This document shows positions 2,808 to 35,236 of a stretch of 45,171 bases of DNA, in pieces. Origin of the DNA: [Limnothrix rosea] IAM M-220 (GTDB taxonomy: Bacteria; Cyanobacteriota; Cyanobacteriia; Cyanobacteriales; MRBY01); the NCBI RefSeq assembly GCF_001904615.1, contig NZ_MRBY01000032.1:1-45171 (forward strand), in the 5' to 3' direction. The translations under genes were made by a program, and so were the position numbers. The first letter of the stretch is position 1. Each line of letters opens with the position of its first letter. The notes under the pieces were generated by a model. The model saw only the letters and a program-made list of their open reading frames with translations. It made no database searches and was not told the DNA's origin.

Positions 2808-4325
2808 TTAGTTAGTGGATTGTAAAGTCTCAATGCCCCATAAAAATACTGACTCAAGCAATGTTTGTTGATTCACTTCCTCTGGATTTTTTAACGTCCA
2901 GCACAAAATTTCGAGACAACGATTAAACACTTGGGGTTTCGTCGCCGCTGCCGGATTATTGAGGGAAATGGCCTGGGCAAAGGTCTGAAGATTATCCACT
3001 GGTATATTTTTGTGCGTCACGTTATTGCGCAATATCCGAATATTATGAAGGGCGTTGATTCTTTCCTGTGAAGTATTGTTGGATGGCAGAACCTTTGTGA
3101 GAGCATCCACAAGCTCTGTGCTTTTGGGATTATATGTCCCCCTAGACCAATCCCAATCGCTGCGGACTTTGATTAAGCCTTTATCAATCCATTTTTCCTC
3201 ATCTGCCCGTTTAAATAAAAGCTGTTCGATCAACTGGGCAAATAAGAAAAAAGCCGCAGTAAAGTAACCAAGGTTTAGTTCAATATTCAAGAGAAAGGTG
3301 CTTTCCCATAATTTTTGGTAATCATCATTGCTAATGGCTTGGCGCTTTTTTTCCCACATATCCCGTTTAATAGTCCCTGTCATTCTTACCGTTGTTTCAT
3401 CAGCAAGCCATTGCCCTAGATATTTTTTTGTGAAAATTCGCGCTACCTCACGGTTGCGAGCGAGATTTAGATGCCCGGCCAACTCATACAAGGTCAGGAG
3501 TTTACTTTGGTGAGCCGTCAGCAAAGTCTGAGCCTCTGCAAAATTTCCCTGTTTCCATGACCGCTGAATACGATCTTTTTCTAAATGCCAAAAGTACTCA
3601 CTGACTGTGATAACGTCTATTCTCTCTGAGAACTTAGCGCGGCGATCGCCTTCCGGATAATTATCCTTTGGTTCTTCGGGGGTGACCTTAAAAACTTCAA
3701 ATTGTCGGACTAATGTACCCGAAAAAATATCTACAATATTGGCGATCGCCGGAGCACAGCCTTTAGTTTGGATAGCAACCTGAAGGTTTTGATGTGGCTG
3801 GGGACTATTTGTTTGTTCTAGCGCTAGGGGCAGGACAATTTCCTGTAATTCTTCATAGACTTTCTTCCTCTCCATGATGTTGAGTTCTGTATCAATGACA
3901 TCTACTTGCAGATCTGGAAAGTCTACTTGGATTTTCGATTCCATCAAGCGAGCGAGCCATAATGTATCCGCCGAACGATATTTCCACGGTACAGTTTCAG
4001 GCTGATTCGTCGCCCAGAGAATAACTGTTTTCAGCCCATCTGCGACCAAATCACGAATAATTTTTCCATCCATGAGCAGTTGAACTGCACTAAAATCTCC
4101 CCCCAGCTCTGTTTGACAATGCTGATAATAAGTTTCTCCTAGATGACGCACCCCCCAATTTATGCCGGGTTCGTGGCTACCCCGTTCGAGATTTAGCTCT
4201 GAATACAGTTCATCAATATGGGGAGGATGGAGGCGATCGCCATCAGCCCCAAAGCAACGAATAATGCTATCTTTGCACTTCCAGCCAATCTGACGAGTAC
4301 CCACAGTAATAATTAAAATATCCAT
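2808..4325 (-). CDS. CARF-HEPN type III CRISPR ancillary ribonuclease (Csx1/Csm6-like)
   Basis: This is the last gene of the Cmr operon, 24 bases after the RAMP fusion gene. The N-terminus (DILIITVGTRQIG) has the look of a CARF domain, a Rossmann-like sensor of cyclic oligoadenylates made by Cas10. The C-terminal region holds a HEPN motif Rx4H, with Arg433 and His438 in ILRNNVTHKN, the catalytic pair of Csm6/Csx1 RNases. At 505 residues there is room for a linker or winged-helix segment between them. Expected role: when the Cmr complex meets target RNA, Cas10 makes cyclic oligoadenylate, which dimeric CARF binds and activates non-specific RNA cleavage. I call the CARF-HEPN class with good confidence but cannot assign the exact subfamily. 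Confidence 0.82.
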   Translation of the reverse strand: MDILIITVGTRQIGWKCKDSIIRCFGADGDRLHPPHIDELYSELNLERGSHEPGINWGVRHLGETYYQHCQTELGGDFSAVQLLMDGKIIRDLVADGLKTVILWATNQPETVPWKYRSADTLWLARLMESKIQVDFPDLQVDVIDTELNIMERKKVYEELQEIVLPLALEQTNSPQPHQNLQVAIQTKGCAPAIANIVDIFSGTLVRQFEVFKVTPEEPKDNYPEGDRRAKFSERIDVITVSEYFWHLEKDRIQRSWKQGNFAEAQTLLTAHQSKLLTLYELAGHLNLARNREVARIFTKKYLGQWLADETTVRMTGTIKRDMWEKKRQAISNDDYQKLWESTFLLNIELNLGYFTAAFFLFAQLIEQLLFKRADEEKWIDKGLIKVRSDWDWSRGTYNPKSTELVDALTKVLPSNNTSQERINALHNIRILRNNVTHKNIPVDNLQTFAQAISLNNPAAATKPQVFNRCLEILCWTLKNPEEVNQQTLLESVFLWGIETLQSTN

Positions 4326-4349
4326 CGCTAATTAATTTCCATCAATAAT

Positions 4350-6053
4350 TTATTGACCAAATAAATGAATACGGCCTTCAGAGCGTTGTAAATCTCGTAA
4401 AAACCGAGACCGAACATGATTATTCTGAGTTTGTGCTCCCCCTAAAAACAGGCAGGCAATCTCTGTACAATCTGTGCCAATCTCATCATCAGGATGGCGG
4501 AAACCATAGCGACGAATAGAAACCCACGAACAATGCGCACTACCACGACCTGCATTACCACCTAAAGCAGGATTACGTTTATAGTTACGCGGCTGCCTCT
4601 CCAGATACACCAGATACATGGCATCACCACGGGTTTCTGTAGCTCTATCTTCTTGCCACTCTAATTCTTGAAAATCTACAGGTTCATCATCAGGACCCGG
4701 CAGCATATATATGGCACAAGTTGTAGGAGAGAAAACTTCCCCTTCAAGGTTGTCATTCACGCCGATTTGCAGGCGATCGCCCCATTTTTCCTGCACTTTA
4801 TCCAGCCAACTTTGATAAAGATTTTGCCAAGTTTGAGGTCTATGGGGAGGTAGTAAATAGTTAACAGTTCTCCATTGAGTAGAGTTTGGATCTCGACGAC
4901 GGTGAGTTAGTTTCAAAAAAGAACCACGAGCCGCAGTACGCCCATTATTCATCGTGAAAATATGCAATGGTCTGCGCCAGCCTCGCCCTACGCCGCCCAC
5001 ACTTGCTGCCACTCGAACAATGGGTAAAATAATCGGCAAAACATCTTTAGGAGCGTGAATTTCTAACTTGCCTGACCAACGGAAAAAACGAGGTTGATCA
5101 GAACTGCGATCGCCCCAAACATTACCGGGTTTCACTTTGATTGAGACACAACCTTTAATAGTCTCTGGCTCAATTGAACCAAACAACTCAGCCAATGTCC
5201 TTTGGGCATTCTGTTGGGACATTACCCCTAATAAAAACCGCAGTGTCCACGATCGTAACCAACCGCGCCAATGAGAAGGGCGTAACTCCTCTGTTCCTCT
5301 CTGAGTCGAAACACCATAACAACCCTGACTAAACAAATCAAAACTCAGAACTTTCTTGGCATAGTTGGGTAGAGATTTGGGCGTAACATCGTGTCGCTCT
5401 ACCACTCCATAACCCGAAGCAGTCCGACTACCAACCCCAGACAAAGTTAATGCCTGCTCAACCCAACCCCAAACTGTTACTACATCCTCCGGTGTTGCCC
5501 GATTAGGAATACCCCGAATCGCAACCTCAAACTGAATCGGTTCACCATCACCAAAGGTGTAATGGGAGAGAGGAGTACTTTGCCCTTGATGCAACACTTG
5601 AAAATTTTCTTGAGGGTTAACAATATCCAGCGTTAAGCGTGTGGGCTGTTGCGGCCAAGCATCTAAAAATTCGATTTTTCCAGCTTTGATTTCATCACCT
5701 GTTTGTTCGCCTAACAATGCCACCATCTGAGGATAAATATCAGGATGTTGCTTCGCCCATGAACGCACTAAACCCCGAATGGAAGAACCGGGAATATAAC
5801 CATTGAGCGGTAAAGTCGGTAAACGTTGGAGATTTTCCCCTACATTCCGCTTATCTTCTGGACGACCTTGACTGGACTTCCAACTTCCACAGGGTTCACC
5901 CGCTGACACGAGAGTTTCTACATCTGGGTGAGGAAAAGACCCGACCTTAGCCCGTCCATTCAGGGTAAAAAGACCTTTTTTTAATAGATCAGCCTGCCCC
6001 CGTTGCTGGTGTTGTTCTGCTAACAAATCTGCCAGCAAAGTTTGTGTATACAT
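4350..6053 (-). CDS. Fused Cmr6-Cmr1 RAMP protein of a type III-B effector complex
   Basis: The N-terminal half (to about residue 230) reads as Cmr6: the IPGSSIRGLVRS motif, then GKIEFLDAWP, the LTLDIVNP segment and a closing GVGSRTASGYG glycine loop. The C-terminal half reads as Cmr1: FDLFSQGCYGV, ELRPSHWRGWLRSWTLR, AELFGSIE and a final GGVGRGWRRPLH. Separate cmr1 and cmr6 genes are absent, so this fusion would supply both. In the complex, Cmr6 caps the backbone and Cmr1 grips the crRNA 3' end or target. The frame is open from 6110, but that would overlap cmr5; I prefer the Met at 6053 (MYTQTLLADLL), which leaves a 20-base gap and gives 567 residues. Confidence 0.83.
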   Translation of the reverse strand: MYTQTLLADLLAEQHQQRGQADLLKKGLFTLNGRAKVGSFPHPDVETLVSAGEPCGSWKSSQGRPEDKRNVGENLQRLPTLPLNGYIPGSSIRGLVRSWAKQHPDIYPQMVALLGEQTGDEIKAGKIEFLDAWPQQPTRLTLDIVNPQENFQVLHQGQSTPLSHYTFGDGEPIQFEVAIRGIPNRATPEDVVTVWGWVEQALTLSGVGSRTASGYGVVERHDVTPKSLPNYAKKVLSFDLFSQGCYGVSTQRGTEELRPSHWRGWLRSWTLRFLLGVMSQQNAQRTLAELFGSIEPETIKGCVSIKVKPGNVWGDRSSDQPRFFRWSGKLEIHAPKDVLPIILPIVRVAASVGGVGRGWRRPLHIFTMNNGRTAARGSFLKLTHRRRDPNSTQWRTVNYLLPPHRPQTWQNLYQSWLDKVQEKWGDRLQIGVNDNLEGEVFSPTTCAIYMLPGPDDEPVDFQELEWQEDRATETRGDAMYLVYLERQPRNYKRNPALGGNAGRGSAHCSWVSIRRYGFRHPDDEIGTDCTEIACLFLGGAQTQNNHVRSRFLRDLQRSEGRIHLFGQ

Positions 6054-30334: not shown

Positions 30335-31633
30335 CTAAAAAATGAATTTTAACTGGATTTCCCAAGGGCTATTGGGGTGCGGGGCAATGTAAATCTGGGC
30401 AATAAATTCCCTTAGGTAGAAGCGTCGCTCGGCTTCGGAGAGGTCATACCAAAATTGTTCGAGGGTTAGGGTCTGGGCGATCGCCCGGAGGTTGGCGGGG
30501 GGCAGTTGGTTGCGTTGGTTTTGCAGCTGGGCAATGTCATTTTGGAGGGTATAACGGCGTAATGCGGCGGTCTCGATATCGAGGATGTCCTGCTCGATTA
30601 AATTGGGCAATGTGGCAATGAGCGCTGTTTTTTGTTGGATACGCTGCTGAATCTGGCTTTGAATAGCGGCGAGGGGAGGCGCATTTTGTTGGTCGGCAAG
30701 CTTGGGGAATTCTTGGCAAATGTTCTGTACTGTTCTTCGAAAAACGTCTTCGTAGGCGATCGCCGGACATTTATCGTCTTGGGGACAGTTGGGCGATCGT
30801 AGATAAAGATATTCTTGGGCTTTTCGGCGCTGGGTAACGCGGGAAATCGTTAAAGTTTTTTGGCAGGTTTGGCACTGCACTAAACCAGCAAGACAACGGG
30901 GCGCACTAGCGCTACGGGGCGACAGACGACGGTTGCGACGTAGTAGTCGGTCTATTTGTGCCGCTTCATTATCACTCAGGATGGCGGCGTGGGTTTGGGG
31001 GATGGTTGTGCCGTCTTTGTAGTGCAGATTGCCGCGATAGGCCGGATTTGTCAGCCATTTACGCCCAGTTGATACCGCAATTTTTTTGCCAAAGCGACGT
31101 TCGATGTAACGCACTGAGCCGCGCAGAGAACCGTATAGCAGAAAATGCTCACAAAAAGCCTGCACAATGGGAGCCGTACTCCGGTCAATGAGATAGCGGT
31201 CTTGTCCCCGTTTATAACCGTAGGGGGCGCGCCCTGGTGGCGGTAAGCAATTGCGACGATTTTTGGCGTGACCCTGTTGAATTTTTCGACTTTTTTGGCG
31301 ATCGCCGATCCCTTGCAAAAGTTGGCTGAGTTGTTGAGGATTATCCCGGTGTGTCGAATGGTAATCCTGCTCAGTGGTAATAATCGTGACTCCAGCCTGT
31401 TCTATCCGTTGGAGGCGATCGCCAATTTCTGTCAGACTATCCCCCAACTCATCCAATTTTCTAAGCAATAAATAATAACCAGAACAGGTCGACGATAAAG
31501 TCCCTAAAAAACGTTTTAGCTCACAGCGCTGGGCAATATCCGCATAAACTTCATCGACTTCTACCCCCCAAATCGCCGCATCCACAAAGTCATCTAAAAG
31601 GGGGTCAGTGTAGGTATAAGCAAAAATCGCCAT
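30335..31633 (-). CDS. Serine recombinase family protein with a lost active site
   Basis: A 432-residue protein with the layout of a large serine recombinase (XisF-like): resolvase-like N-terminus, a 'recombinase' domain (PPPGRAPYGYKR, WLTNPAYRGNLHY), a zinc-ribbon (CQTCQKTLT ... CPQDDKC) and a coiled-coil tail. The catalytic residues are missing. The YxRVS motif reads YTYTD (residues 6-10), and the LDRLGRS motif reads LDELGDS (residues 60-66), so the nucleophilic Ser and two essential Arg are replaced. It probably binds DNA without recombining it. No attachment sites or element are evident next to it. It may be a domesticated, conserved protein rather than a recent pseudogene, as the frame is intact. 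Confidence 0.82.
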   Translation of the reverse strand: MAIFAYTYTDPLLDDFVDAAIWGVEVDEVYADIAQRCELKRFLGTLSSTCSGYYLLLRKLDELGDSLTEIGDRLQRIEQAGVTIITTEQDYHSTHRDNPQQLSQLLQGIGDRQKSRKIQQGHAKNRRNCLPPPGRAPYGYKRGQDRYLIDRSTAPIVQAFCEHFLLYGSLRGSVRYIERRFGKKIAVSTGRKWLTNPAYRGNLHYKDGTTIPQTHAAILSDNEAAQIDRLLRRNRRLSPRSASAPRCLAGLVQCQTCQKTLTISRVTQRRKAQEYLYLRSPNCPQDDKCPAIAYEDVFRRTVQNICQEFPKLADQQNAPPLAAIQSQIQQRIQQKTALIATLPNLIEQDILDIETAALRRYTLQNDIAQLQNQRNQLPPANLRAIAQTLTLEQFWYDLSEAERRFYLREFIAQIYIAPHPNSPWEIQLKFIF

Positions 31634-32577: not shown

Positions 32578-33039
32578 CTATCGAGTCATAGTTTCCGAAG
32601 CAGCCTTCGCTTGCTCGAGGTATATTCTAAACCGCTCTAAATCCGCTTGAATAGTCGATTCAACAACTTTTCCGAGGAACAAATTATCCATAACTTGCCC
32701 AAGAATTCCCGGAATATCATAAGCAATACTGAGGCGAACAATACTACTGCCCTTGCGGTCATAAAAACGTACCGCACCACGATTTGGCAAACCATCAATG
32801 GACTCCCATTGAATGATTTGGTTTGGTATAACTTTCAGCGTTTTCGAGAGCCATTTAAACTCAAAAGAGCCACTCGCCAACTTCCAACGCGAAAGCTCTG
32901 GATCATCCTCAAGGATTTCGACAGATTCGATCCACTTCATCCATTTTGGCATTTGCTCAAGGTCAGACCAAAGACCCCAAACCATCTCAATGGGTGCGTC
33001 AACTTCAATCTGTACACTGTGTTCGAGCCAATTAGACAT
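32578..33039 (-). CDS. SRPBCC (START-like) family protein, polyketide cyclase/dehydrase type
   Basis: A 153-residue protein with the START-like opening LEHSVQIEVDAPIEMVWGLWSDLEQMPKWMKW, then SGSFEFKWLSKTL and a C-terminal long helix (KVVESTIQADLERFRIYLEQ). The fold has a deep cavity for a hydrophobic ligand. Cyanobacterial members of this type are mostly uncharacterised; ligand and role are unknown. It lacks a signal peptide, so it is probably cytosolic. Confidence 0.87.
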   Translation of the reverse strand: MSNWLEHSVQIEVDAPIEMVWGLWSDLEQMPKWMKWIESVEILEDDPELSRWKLASGSFEFKWLSKTLKVIPNQIIQWESIDGLPNRGAVRFYDRKGSSIVRLSIAYDIPGILGQVMDNLFLGKVVESTIQADLERFRIYLEQAKAASETMTR

Positions 33040-33150
33040 AAAACTTTATATTTGAAATCGCTCCACTACTCTAACAGAATTGCTTCATCACTTGGGTTCT
33101 GTAACCTAGACAAAAAAAGAGGGCGATGATCGCCGCCCCACTCTTCTATT

Positions 33151-33240
33151 TGTAGGGTGCGTTAATGGAATGTAACGCACCATATTTATTTAGAAGAAAC
33201 TATTACTTGTTGATGCGTTACGCTTCGCTAACACATCCTT
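33151..33240. repeat. Palindromic MITE-like element, copy 2
   Basis: About 90 bases beginning TGTAGGGTGCGTTAATGG and ending GCTTCGCTAACACATCC, the reverse complement of the start of copy 1. It lies in the opposite orientation to copy 1 and nearly matches copy 3. Confidence 0.88.
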
Positions 33241-33244
33241 GTTT

Positions 33245-33298
33245 TAATTATCCAGCTTCAGCACCGCCATAAACGCTTCTTGAGGCATATCAACCGTT
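33245..33298 (-). pseudogene. Orphan copy of the lepA C-terminal codons
   Basis: Read on the minus strand these bases encode [17 protein letters not shown] and a stop, against [17 protein letters not shown] at the real lepA end. Of nine base differences, eight are silent and one is Met for Val. That pattern implies the copy evolved as a functional lepA end before landing here. Confidence 0.88.
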
Positions 33299-33334
33299 AG
33301 AAAAAAGAGGCGATCGCCGCCCCGCTCTTCTATT

Positions 33335-33424
33335 TGTAGGGTGCGTTAATGGAATGTAACGCACCATATTTATTGGGAAGAAACTATTACTTGTTGATGC
33401 GTTACGCTTCGCTAACACATCCTT
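33335..33424. repeat. Palindromic MITE-like element, copy 3
   Basis: Nearly identical to copy 2, differing mainly at TATTGGGAAG versus TATTTAGAAG. It lies directly downstream of the true lepA stop and could serve as its terminator. Confidence 0.88.
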
Positions 33425-33427
33425 GTT

Positions 33428-35236
33428 TTAATTATCCAGCTTTAGGACTGCCATGAATGCCTCTTGGGGCACATCCACCGTACCGATCGCCTTCATGCGC
33501 TTCTTACCTTTCGCTTGCTTTTGGAGAAGCTTTTTCTTTCGAGAAATATCCCCGCCATAACACTTTGCAAGGACATCCTTACGCAAAGCCGGAATATGTT
33601 CACTCGCAATAATCTTTGAACCAATCGCCGCCTGAATCGGAATCTTAAACTGGTGGCGGGGAATGAGTTCCTTAAGCTTTTCAGCCATTGCCCGACCGAC
33701 ATAATAGGCTTTATCACGGTGTACGATCATCGCCAACGAATCCACCGGATCTTTATTCACCATCAGATCAAGACGCACCAGCTCACCCTTACGGTAGCCA
33801 ATCAGTTGATATTCCATGCTCGCGTAGCCACGAGTTCTGGATTTAAGCTGATCAAAGAAATCCGTCACCACCTCCGCCAAAGGCAACTCATAAATGATAT
33901 TGGTGCGGCTCTCCGTAAAATACTTCATGTCCTTAAACACACCACGGCGGGTCTGACAAAGATCCATAATCGTACCGACAAACTCTTCCGGCGTAATCAC
34001 ATCGACTTTGATGTAAGGCTCCTCGATTTTTTCGCGCTTTTGGGGATCCGGCAGCTGACTCGGATTATCAATTTCCACCACCTGTCCATCCGTTGTCGTC
34101 ACCCGATAAATTACCGACGGTGCCGTCGTAATCAGATCGAGATTGTATTCCCGCTCCAAGCGCTCTTGGACAATTTCGAGGTGAAGCAAGCCAAGGAAAC
34201 CACACCGGAAGCCAAAACCCATGGCACTAGACGTTTCCGGCTCAAAAGACAATGCCGCGTCATTAAGTTTCAGCTTATCGAGGGCATCACGGAGATCAGG
34301 ATATTGGTCAGCATCGGTGGGAAAAAGACCACAGAAAACCATCGGTTTTGCTTCGGTGTAACCCGGCAAAGGCTCCTCTGCCTTTTCTGCCGCCGAGGTG
34401 ATTGTGTCACCCACCCGGGCATCTTCAACGGATTTAATCGAAGCGGCAAAATAGCCCACTTCTCCGGCATGGAGGCTATCCACATGGACTTCGTTAGGAG
34501 CTAAAACACCCAGCTCATCAATTTCATATTCTTTTTTTGACGCCATCAAAAGGACTTTATCACCCTTTTTGATTTCGCCGTCCATTACCCGAAAATAGAC
34601 GATCACACCGCGATAGGGATCATAGTAACTATCAAAAATCAACGCCCTTAGGGGTTGGTCAATGGTATCGGCTGGTGGCGGAACATCCCGTACAACCGAT
34701 TCGAGGATTTCCTCAATGCCAATGCCGGCTTTTGCCGACGCTTTAATAATATCTGTGCAGTCAAGGCCGACAACTTCTTCAATTTCTTCAGAAACCCGAT
34801 CTGGTTCTGCGCCGGGTAAATCAATTTTGTTGAGGACGGGGATAATTTCGAGGTCATTGTCGAGGGCAAGGTAAACATTTGCCAAGGTCTGGGCTTCTAC
34901 CCCTTGGGACGCGTCAACAACTAGTAATGCTCCTTCACAGGCTGCTAGTGAGCGCGACACTTCGTAGGAGAAATCGACGTGTCCGGGAGTATCAATGAGG
35001 TTGAGGATATATTCGTTGCCATCTTTTGCGGTGTAGCGCATGCGGGCAGCTTGGAGCTTGATGGTAATACCTCGTTCCCGTTCGAGTTCCATATTGTCTA
35101 GAAACTGCTCCTTCATATCCCGCTGGGAAACCGTGCTTGTGTCCTGCAACATCCGGTCAGCAAGGGTCGATTTGCCGTGGTCAATGTGGGCAATAATTGA
35201 AAAGTTTCGGATACGAGAGACAGCAACGTCGGTCAT
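33428..35236 (-). CDS. lepA: Elongation factor 4 (LepA), ribosome back-translocase
   Basis: LepA is a translational GTPase that acts on stalled or mis-translocated ribosomes and in ribosome assembly. The G motifs are visible: [13 protein letters not shown], the switch I segment [18 protein letters not shown] and NKIDLPGA. The C-terminal domain specific to LepA ends [21 protein letters not shown] followed by the conserved [11 protein letters not shown]. At 602 residues the length is normal. Downstream lies an extra copy of its last codons. Confidence 0.98.

Follow-up and report, generated by a model that had tools for sequence, protein, structure and literature searches.

A tandem repeat of the lepA 3′ end and a REP-like palindromic dimer in [Limnothrix rosea] IAM M-220 pairs two coding tails that differ almost only at silent sites

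GTAG-tagged REPs, in which GTAG marks one end of a palindrome, occur in many prokaryotes including cyanobacteria, and their dimers consist of oppositely oriented palindromes, most of them 20-100 bp apart (PMC3733652). In that study, large clusters are said mostly to contain singletons or dimers tandemly repeated with flanking DNA, and this tandem reiteration is presented as a frequent, non-required feature of the dimers. The repetition of REP dimers together with flanking DNA is therefore already known, and so is mosaic transformation: transfer lengths in B. subtilis transformants ranged from under 100 bp upward, and Picosynechococcus PCC 7002 given DNA of PCC 11901 yielded mosaic outcomes as well (PMC13344027). 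In Streptococcus pneumoniae, natural transformation was reported to produce tandem duplications through partial pairing of a donor fragment with a repeat (PMC3784515). Homology-facilitated illegitimate recombination, in which one end is joined by homology and the other illegitimately, is likewise described (PMC3240628). Within a limited open-licence literature, covered by titles and the beginnings of abstracts, no prior description of a gene-end tandem with silent allelic differences was recognised.

The locus described here lies in a 45,171-nt stretch of DNA that was analysed as a whole (the window). The functional lepA gene, encoding elongation factor 4 (602 amino acids), was identified as an open reading frame at 33428..35236 on the minus strand with Pfam matches to GTP_EFTU, EFG_C and LepA_C, and its product was 97% identical in amino acid sequence to that of the sister genome G001. 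At the 3′ end of this gene, a 184-nt unit was present twice in tandem; it joins the final 54 bp of lepA to a palindromic element with two hairpins and to a terminator. A repeat search placed the two 170-nt copies at 33128-33297 and 33312-33481, with a spacing of 184 nt and an identity of 93%. Read along the minus strand, the functional lepA tail with its stop codon (18 codons including the stop; 33428..33481) was followed by the proximal two-hairpin element with a terminator-like GC hairpin and T run (33302..33427; repeat and hairpin searches, folding), by the sequence TCTA as the putative junction between the proximal unit and the next tail (33298..33301; by eye), and by an orphan lepA tail, again of 18 codons including the stop (33244..33297). 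Then came the distal two-hairpin element, whose terminator carries a small insertion (33118..33243; repeat and hairpin searches), and an SRPBCC/polyketide-cyclase-like gene (32578..33039; Pfam), which is also the neighbour of lepA in G001. Both tails were defined by repeat search, alignment and codon comparison. The indel that distinguishes the two terminators lies beyond the 116 aligned noncoding bases considered below, and the join itself showed 0-1 nt of common sequence at most when inspected by eye. At the gathering threshold, Rfam gave no match in the whole window and hence none in the repeat unit. In two other cyanobacteria, at about 4000-4608 of loci L134 and L165, the SRPBCC gene start was seen again 482 or 464 bp downstream, perhaps because of tandem paralogues. 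The window also contained a CRISPR-like array from 13718 to about 16065, with 33 repeat copies counted, ending in CAATCTATTAACTTCTCAGGTGAAGAGAAGC, at a spacing of ~71-81 bp. A serine-recombinase-like protein was encoded at 30335-31633 on the minus strand (Pfam Recombinase, 29 bits; Resolvase N-terminal domain below the cut-off), and tblastn found no match to it in the 20 kb of G001 that surround lepA.

Nine of the 18 codons, stop included, differed between the lepA tails, eight of them silently and one by a V to M change (orphan versus functional), which confirmed the count of nine differing bases, eight of them silent, that a sequence-only reading of this DNA had given for the orphan. The last five codons, including the stop, were identical in the two tails, and both share a final Asn codon at a position where all five genus relatives have Gln. 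In the noncoding portion of the repeat, on the other hand, just 3 of 116 ungapped aligned positions differed, in line with the earlier estimate that the flanking element is about 97 percent identical between the units. Silent sites thus carried 8 differences per 12.2 sites versus 3 per 116 noncoding positions (Fisher 5e-8), a divergence ~25 times that of the DNA fused to the tails. If all changes had fallen on a dead copy, at least eight silent changes out of nine would be expected with a probability of 3.5e-5 to 2.8e-4 and, if both copies had mutated equally with the live copy keeping silent changes only, with a probability of 0.0016 to 0.008 (transition weights 1 to 4 for both ranges), values that apply to a case chosen for its silent changes. 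After a single duplication followed by mutation, all parts of the unit would be of equal age and silent sites would be expected to change no faster than noncoding ones, so that at least one lepA coding end appears to have a history unlike that of the DNA fused to it, unless the element halves were homogenised later. Probably, then, a related strain supplied the DNA that makes up, or has overwritten, one of the lepA tails, and decay in place is the less likely account.

When the genome of the organism itself was searched with the element, a second case was found via element similarity alone. Here, a 182-nt unit standing twice in tandem consisted of an element of this kind, a leader and the initial 19 codons of a gene for a glycosyltransferase (L002 1488-1851, corresponding to about 76,660-77,023 of contig C10 in this genome, G000). 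All four coding differences in this unit were silent, and 3 of 129 noncoding positions differed, giving 4 silent changes per 13.3 sites versus 3 per 129 noncoding positions (Fisher 0.0013). The corresponding probabilities were 0.003 to 0.0065 for a dead copy and 0.02 to 0.04 for two mutating copies. For both loci jointly, with 12 of 13 coding differences silent, they amounted to 1.4e-7 to 2.6e-6 and to 4.5e-5 to 4.3e-4, respectively. Because the glycosyltransferase locus had not been picked for silent changes, we regard it as a fair, though small, replication. Its join showed, by eye, the 4-nt common sequence CATT.

A third unit combining the element with a gene end was not recognised in 1,053,197 bases, comprising the window, 608,026 bases of G000 and 400,000 bases of G001. 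In a further survey of 80 other cyanobacterial loci (623,277 bases) at a higher score threshold, 8 of the 80 gave a match, as a bulk count. Six local repeats picked by hand displayed silent to nonsilent differences of 2:5 (L247), 2:6 (L245), 1:1 (L263), 0:0 (L255), 8:5 (L253) and 11:1 (L252), with both copies of L252 lying within long open genes. The 8 silent and 5 nonsilent codons of L253 (5107-5284, in G001) belong to a partial copy of a neighbouring gene ~673 bp away, and no ORF of at least 80 codons covers this copy. A 184-codon ORF in contig C10 of G000 (L238 12747-13301) contains an internal in-frame 240-bp tandem, 96% identical, with 3 silent and 5 nonsilent differences. The mixed silent shares indicate that silent-only orphans are unusual within this small picked set, which is no clean control.

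The hairpins of the palindromic element lie at 33153-33180 (+) and 33213-33240 (-) in the distal dimer and at 33337-33364 (+) and 33397-33424 (-) in the proximal dimer, in opposite orientation and 32 bp apart in each case, and DNA folding of the proximal copy predicted two hairpins (z -2.4). When up to 3 mismatches were allowed, 36 hairpins in the genome matched a TAGGGTG-type pattern, versus 0 for the reversed control. Each lepA dimer bears this tag on one hairpin, the other reading AAGGATG (2 mismatches). Such a tag, the paired opposite hairpins and the tandem arrangement with flanking DNA resemble the GTAG REP dimers as described in PMC3733652. The element thus fits a GTAG-tagged REP dimer, as a class only, without a family number and not as a mobile REPtron, and since such dimers are tandemly repeated with flanking DNA, the duplication belongs to a known sort. 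Unlike the dimers in that account, however, the flank here is a gene end, with silent changes far above the divergence of the element. Moreover, no Y1 transposase was found in the genome, and just one of the two hairpins in the lepA copies is tagged. The RAYT (Y1, tyrosine) transposase family PF01797 gave 0 matches in G000 and matches in 5 of 14 control genomes, and transposition by a resident RAYT was accordingly rejected. An att-type site-specific integration at the lepA end carrying a replacement tail was set aside as well, because the entire unit including the element is doubled and no identical crossover core was visible by eye at the upstream repeat edge. Unit-size tandems were present at 2 of 19 element loci in the genome, while the locus on contig C24 showed a 39-nt match at a spacing of 149 nt. 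Across the order, 4 of 148 genomes, this one included, had tandem elements according to one exact spacing pattern. The loci elsewhere were L267 and L271 (in one genome), L268 and L269, and inspection by eye showed no clear duplication of a gene end at any of them. At L268, the cluster extends over the beginning of a doubtful ORF of 208 codons. At L267 (1326-1533 of G136:C3, a distant genome of the order), the palindromic elements form an intergenic tandem whose unit measures 197 nt.

The lepA duplication was absent from the genus relatives G001 to G005, each of which had one lepA-tail match, and a duplication common to the relatives was thereby rejected. In G001 the gene order is unchanged, but there is no element between the lepA stop and the terminator and no duplication; its downstream SRPBCC gene was 88% identical. 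Over its first 39 nt, the orphan agreed with its own lepA at 30/39 positions, compared with 33/39 for every one of the five relatives in the genus. Accordingly, neither a duplication with the same differences in the relatives nor a closest kinship of the orphan with this strain's own lepA, both of which the sequence-only reading had named as grounds for abandoning its proposal, was found. An order-wide lepA search covered 388 genomes, 373 of them with a match, and 30 loci were taken on. Among the 29 other lepA ends, 14 resembled the orphan more than its own lepA does, the best being L116 (34/39), from outside the genus, and the functional 39-nt tail was best matched by L098 and L106 (35/39). 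No close donor match was present over 39 nt among these 29 ends of the genus and order, and no conspecific genome was found within the collections searched. A scan for lepA synteny via the SRPBCC protein covered the best 80 of 123 relatives, from which records of the own or a near-own genome had possibly been left out, and recognised no lepA end near SRPBCC with a regular expression, a pattern that could miss variants. The orphan groups with none of the five genus relatives, because 6/13 codons differ from every one of them.

Which of the two tails is the resident one was judged mainly from G001. Where G001 matched one of the two states, it had that of the orphan in 5/5 informative silent codons. 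The functional tail differed from G001 in 12/14 comparable codons and the orphan in 6/13, compared with a baseline for the gene of 117/277 and 74/193 codons in two longer lepA stretches. As a point against the orphan as the resident tail, the proximal and not the distal terminator resembles, by eye, that of G001. The remaining relatives had the orphan state in 3/7 (G002), 3/5 (G003), 4/8 (G004) and 4/6 (G005) informative codons. Their distances to the functional tail (5, 7, 6 and 8 of 14 codons for G002, G003, G004 and G005) were ordinary, so that the deviation could lie with G001 instead. Thus, where the sequence-only reading proposed to see which tail groups with the host tree, G001 sided with the orphan and G002 to G005 favoured neither. 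Codons 300-350 of lepA differed from G001 to an extent (31/48) similar to that of the last 52 codons (32/49), and no orphan is present there. A best-interval scan of the lepA divergence from G001 was not significant (p 0.29), and a change-point analysis gave a weak signal (0.027). At the glycosyltransferase locus, the polarity was mixed by eye, the orphan being derived at 2 codons and the functional copy at 1, with the fourth unpolarised. The functional glycosyltransferase head was unusually close to G001 (2/18 codons differing vs 138/344 gene-wide), which is the opposite of lepA and therefore lends no support to the lepA polarity. Together, the 5/5 silent codons shared with G001, the distance of the functional tail from G001 and the greater similarity of the orphan to relatives than to its own lepA point to an overwritten functional end and a resident orphan. 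Of the earlier proposal that the extra end came by recombination from another lepA allele, the presence of two alleles was supported by the silent excess, the second locus and the relatives. The direction of recombination may have been the reverse, judging from the codon states in G001, with the functional end as the newer allele and the orphan as the resident.

The reading we prefer, tentatively and at a little under an even chance, is that a REP-like dimer was inserted, the tail block was duplicated and a related strain's allele replaced the end of lepA, leaving the orphan as a fossil of the resident end. According to this proposal, a REP-like palindromic dimer would have entered between the lepA stop and the terminator in this lineage. 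An illegitimate event, such as template slippage or one-sided homologous integration, would then have duplicated the final 54 bp of lepA together with the dimer and the terminator, head to tail, so that lepA kept a complete end of its own while an additional, orphan end came to lie downstream. Either in that event or on a separate occasion, homologous recombination would have swapped the coding end on lepA for the allele of a related strain or species, with a replacement tract that ended short of the five final codons shared by the two tails. One-sided homologous integration could produce both the tandem and its allelic divergence in one event, while the alternative would be a duplication and then a short-tract replacement, in two events. 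Natural transformation would be the simplest route for the swap. A ComEC homologue (PF03772) is present, which is weak evidence because PF03772 also matches 10/14 controls including E. coli. The donor tracts from under 100 bp and the discontinuous patches described in PMC13344027 are like the proposed short-tract swap; mosaic transformation as presented there is allelic replacement, however, and a duplication is seen only here. The pneumococcal duplications, according to PMC3784515, involve repeats and are about 100 to 900 kb long, in contrast to the 182 and 184 nt observed here with joins almost without homology. Homology-facilitated illegitimate recombination (PMC3240628) is a candidate process at lepA.

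Conversely, as the sequence-only reading had proposed, the orphan itself could be the import, a related lepA end and element having been joined downstream through a homologous crossover on one side and an illegitimate one on the other (homology-facilitated illegitimate recombination) while the resident tail stayed on lepA. This possibility would produce the same silent excess, and it is consistent with the joins seen by eye at both loci, which have little or no common sequence, with the 2/3 polarisable derived states that the glycosyltransferase orphan carries by eye, and with the relatives besides G001, which do not favour the orphan. Nevertheless, the 5/5 orphan states in G001 and the unusual distance of the functional tail from that genome (12/14 versus 6/13) argue against it, and we consider an imported orphan unlikely, if with an appreciable chance. 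A plain tandem duplication followed by mutation, with the silent excess due to selection on the functional copy and luck, and the elements kept alike by later gene conversion or chance, would agree with the REP dimers in tandem with flanking DNA that have been described (PMC3733652) and with a total of just 13 coding differences. Still, 12/13 of these were silent (p 4.5e-5 to 4.3e-4 with both copies mutating), the noncoding part of the repeat units had changed by just 2 to 3%, and the six picked repeats and L238 (3:5), no clean control, were mixed in their silent share, all of which makes plain duplication improbable.

The two alleles could also owe their proximity to an assembly artefact, the genome being a 92-contig draft in which a bad join of strain variants would put two alleles side by side by stitching their ends into a false tandem. 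However, lepA and the glycosyltransferase gene each gave a single long match in the assembly, the stated contamination is 0.03, the noncoding parts are nearly identical, and by eye the sequence common to both sides of a join is 0 to about 4 nt, an overlap on which assemblers normally make no joins; an artefact is thus improbable too, if anything slightly the more so. Coding selection on the orphan was also considered, since the V to M change creates an ATG from which the frame stays open as far as a TAA, giving a micro-ORF of 14 codons. We give this explanation almost no credence, as no ribosome-binding site was evident by eye, the micro-ORF is absent from the five relatives and the glycosyltransferase case would be left unexplained.

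As a speculative extension, to which we assign a low probability, REP dimers could serve as splice-in sites for incoming alleles beside the resident copy, and orphan gene ends would record transformation or replaced alleles across bacteria. If the preferred reading is wrong, the lepA case is another REP-associated tandem duplication. If it is right, the orphan gene end keeps a second allele within the chromosome and would be an internal witness of core-gene recombination that needs no population sample, and short-tract replacements would become countable from single genomes via gene ends beside REP dimers.
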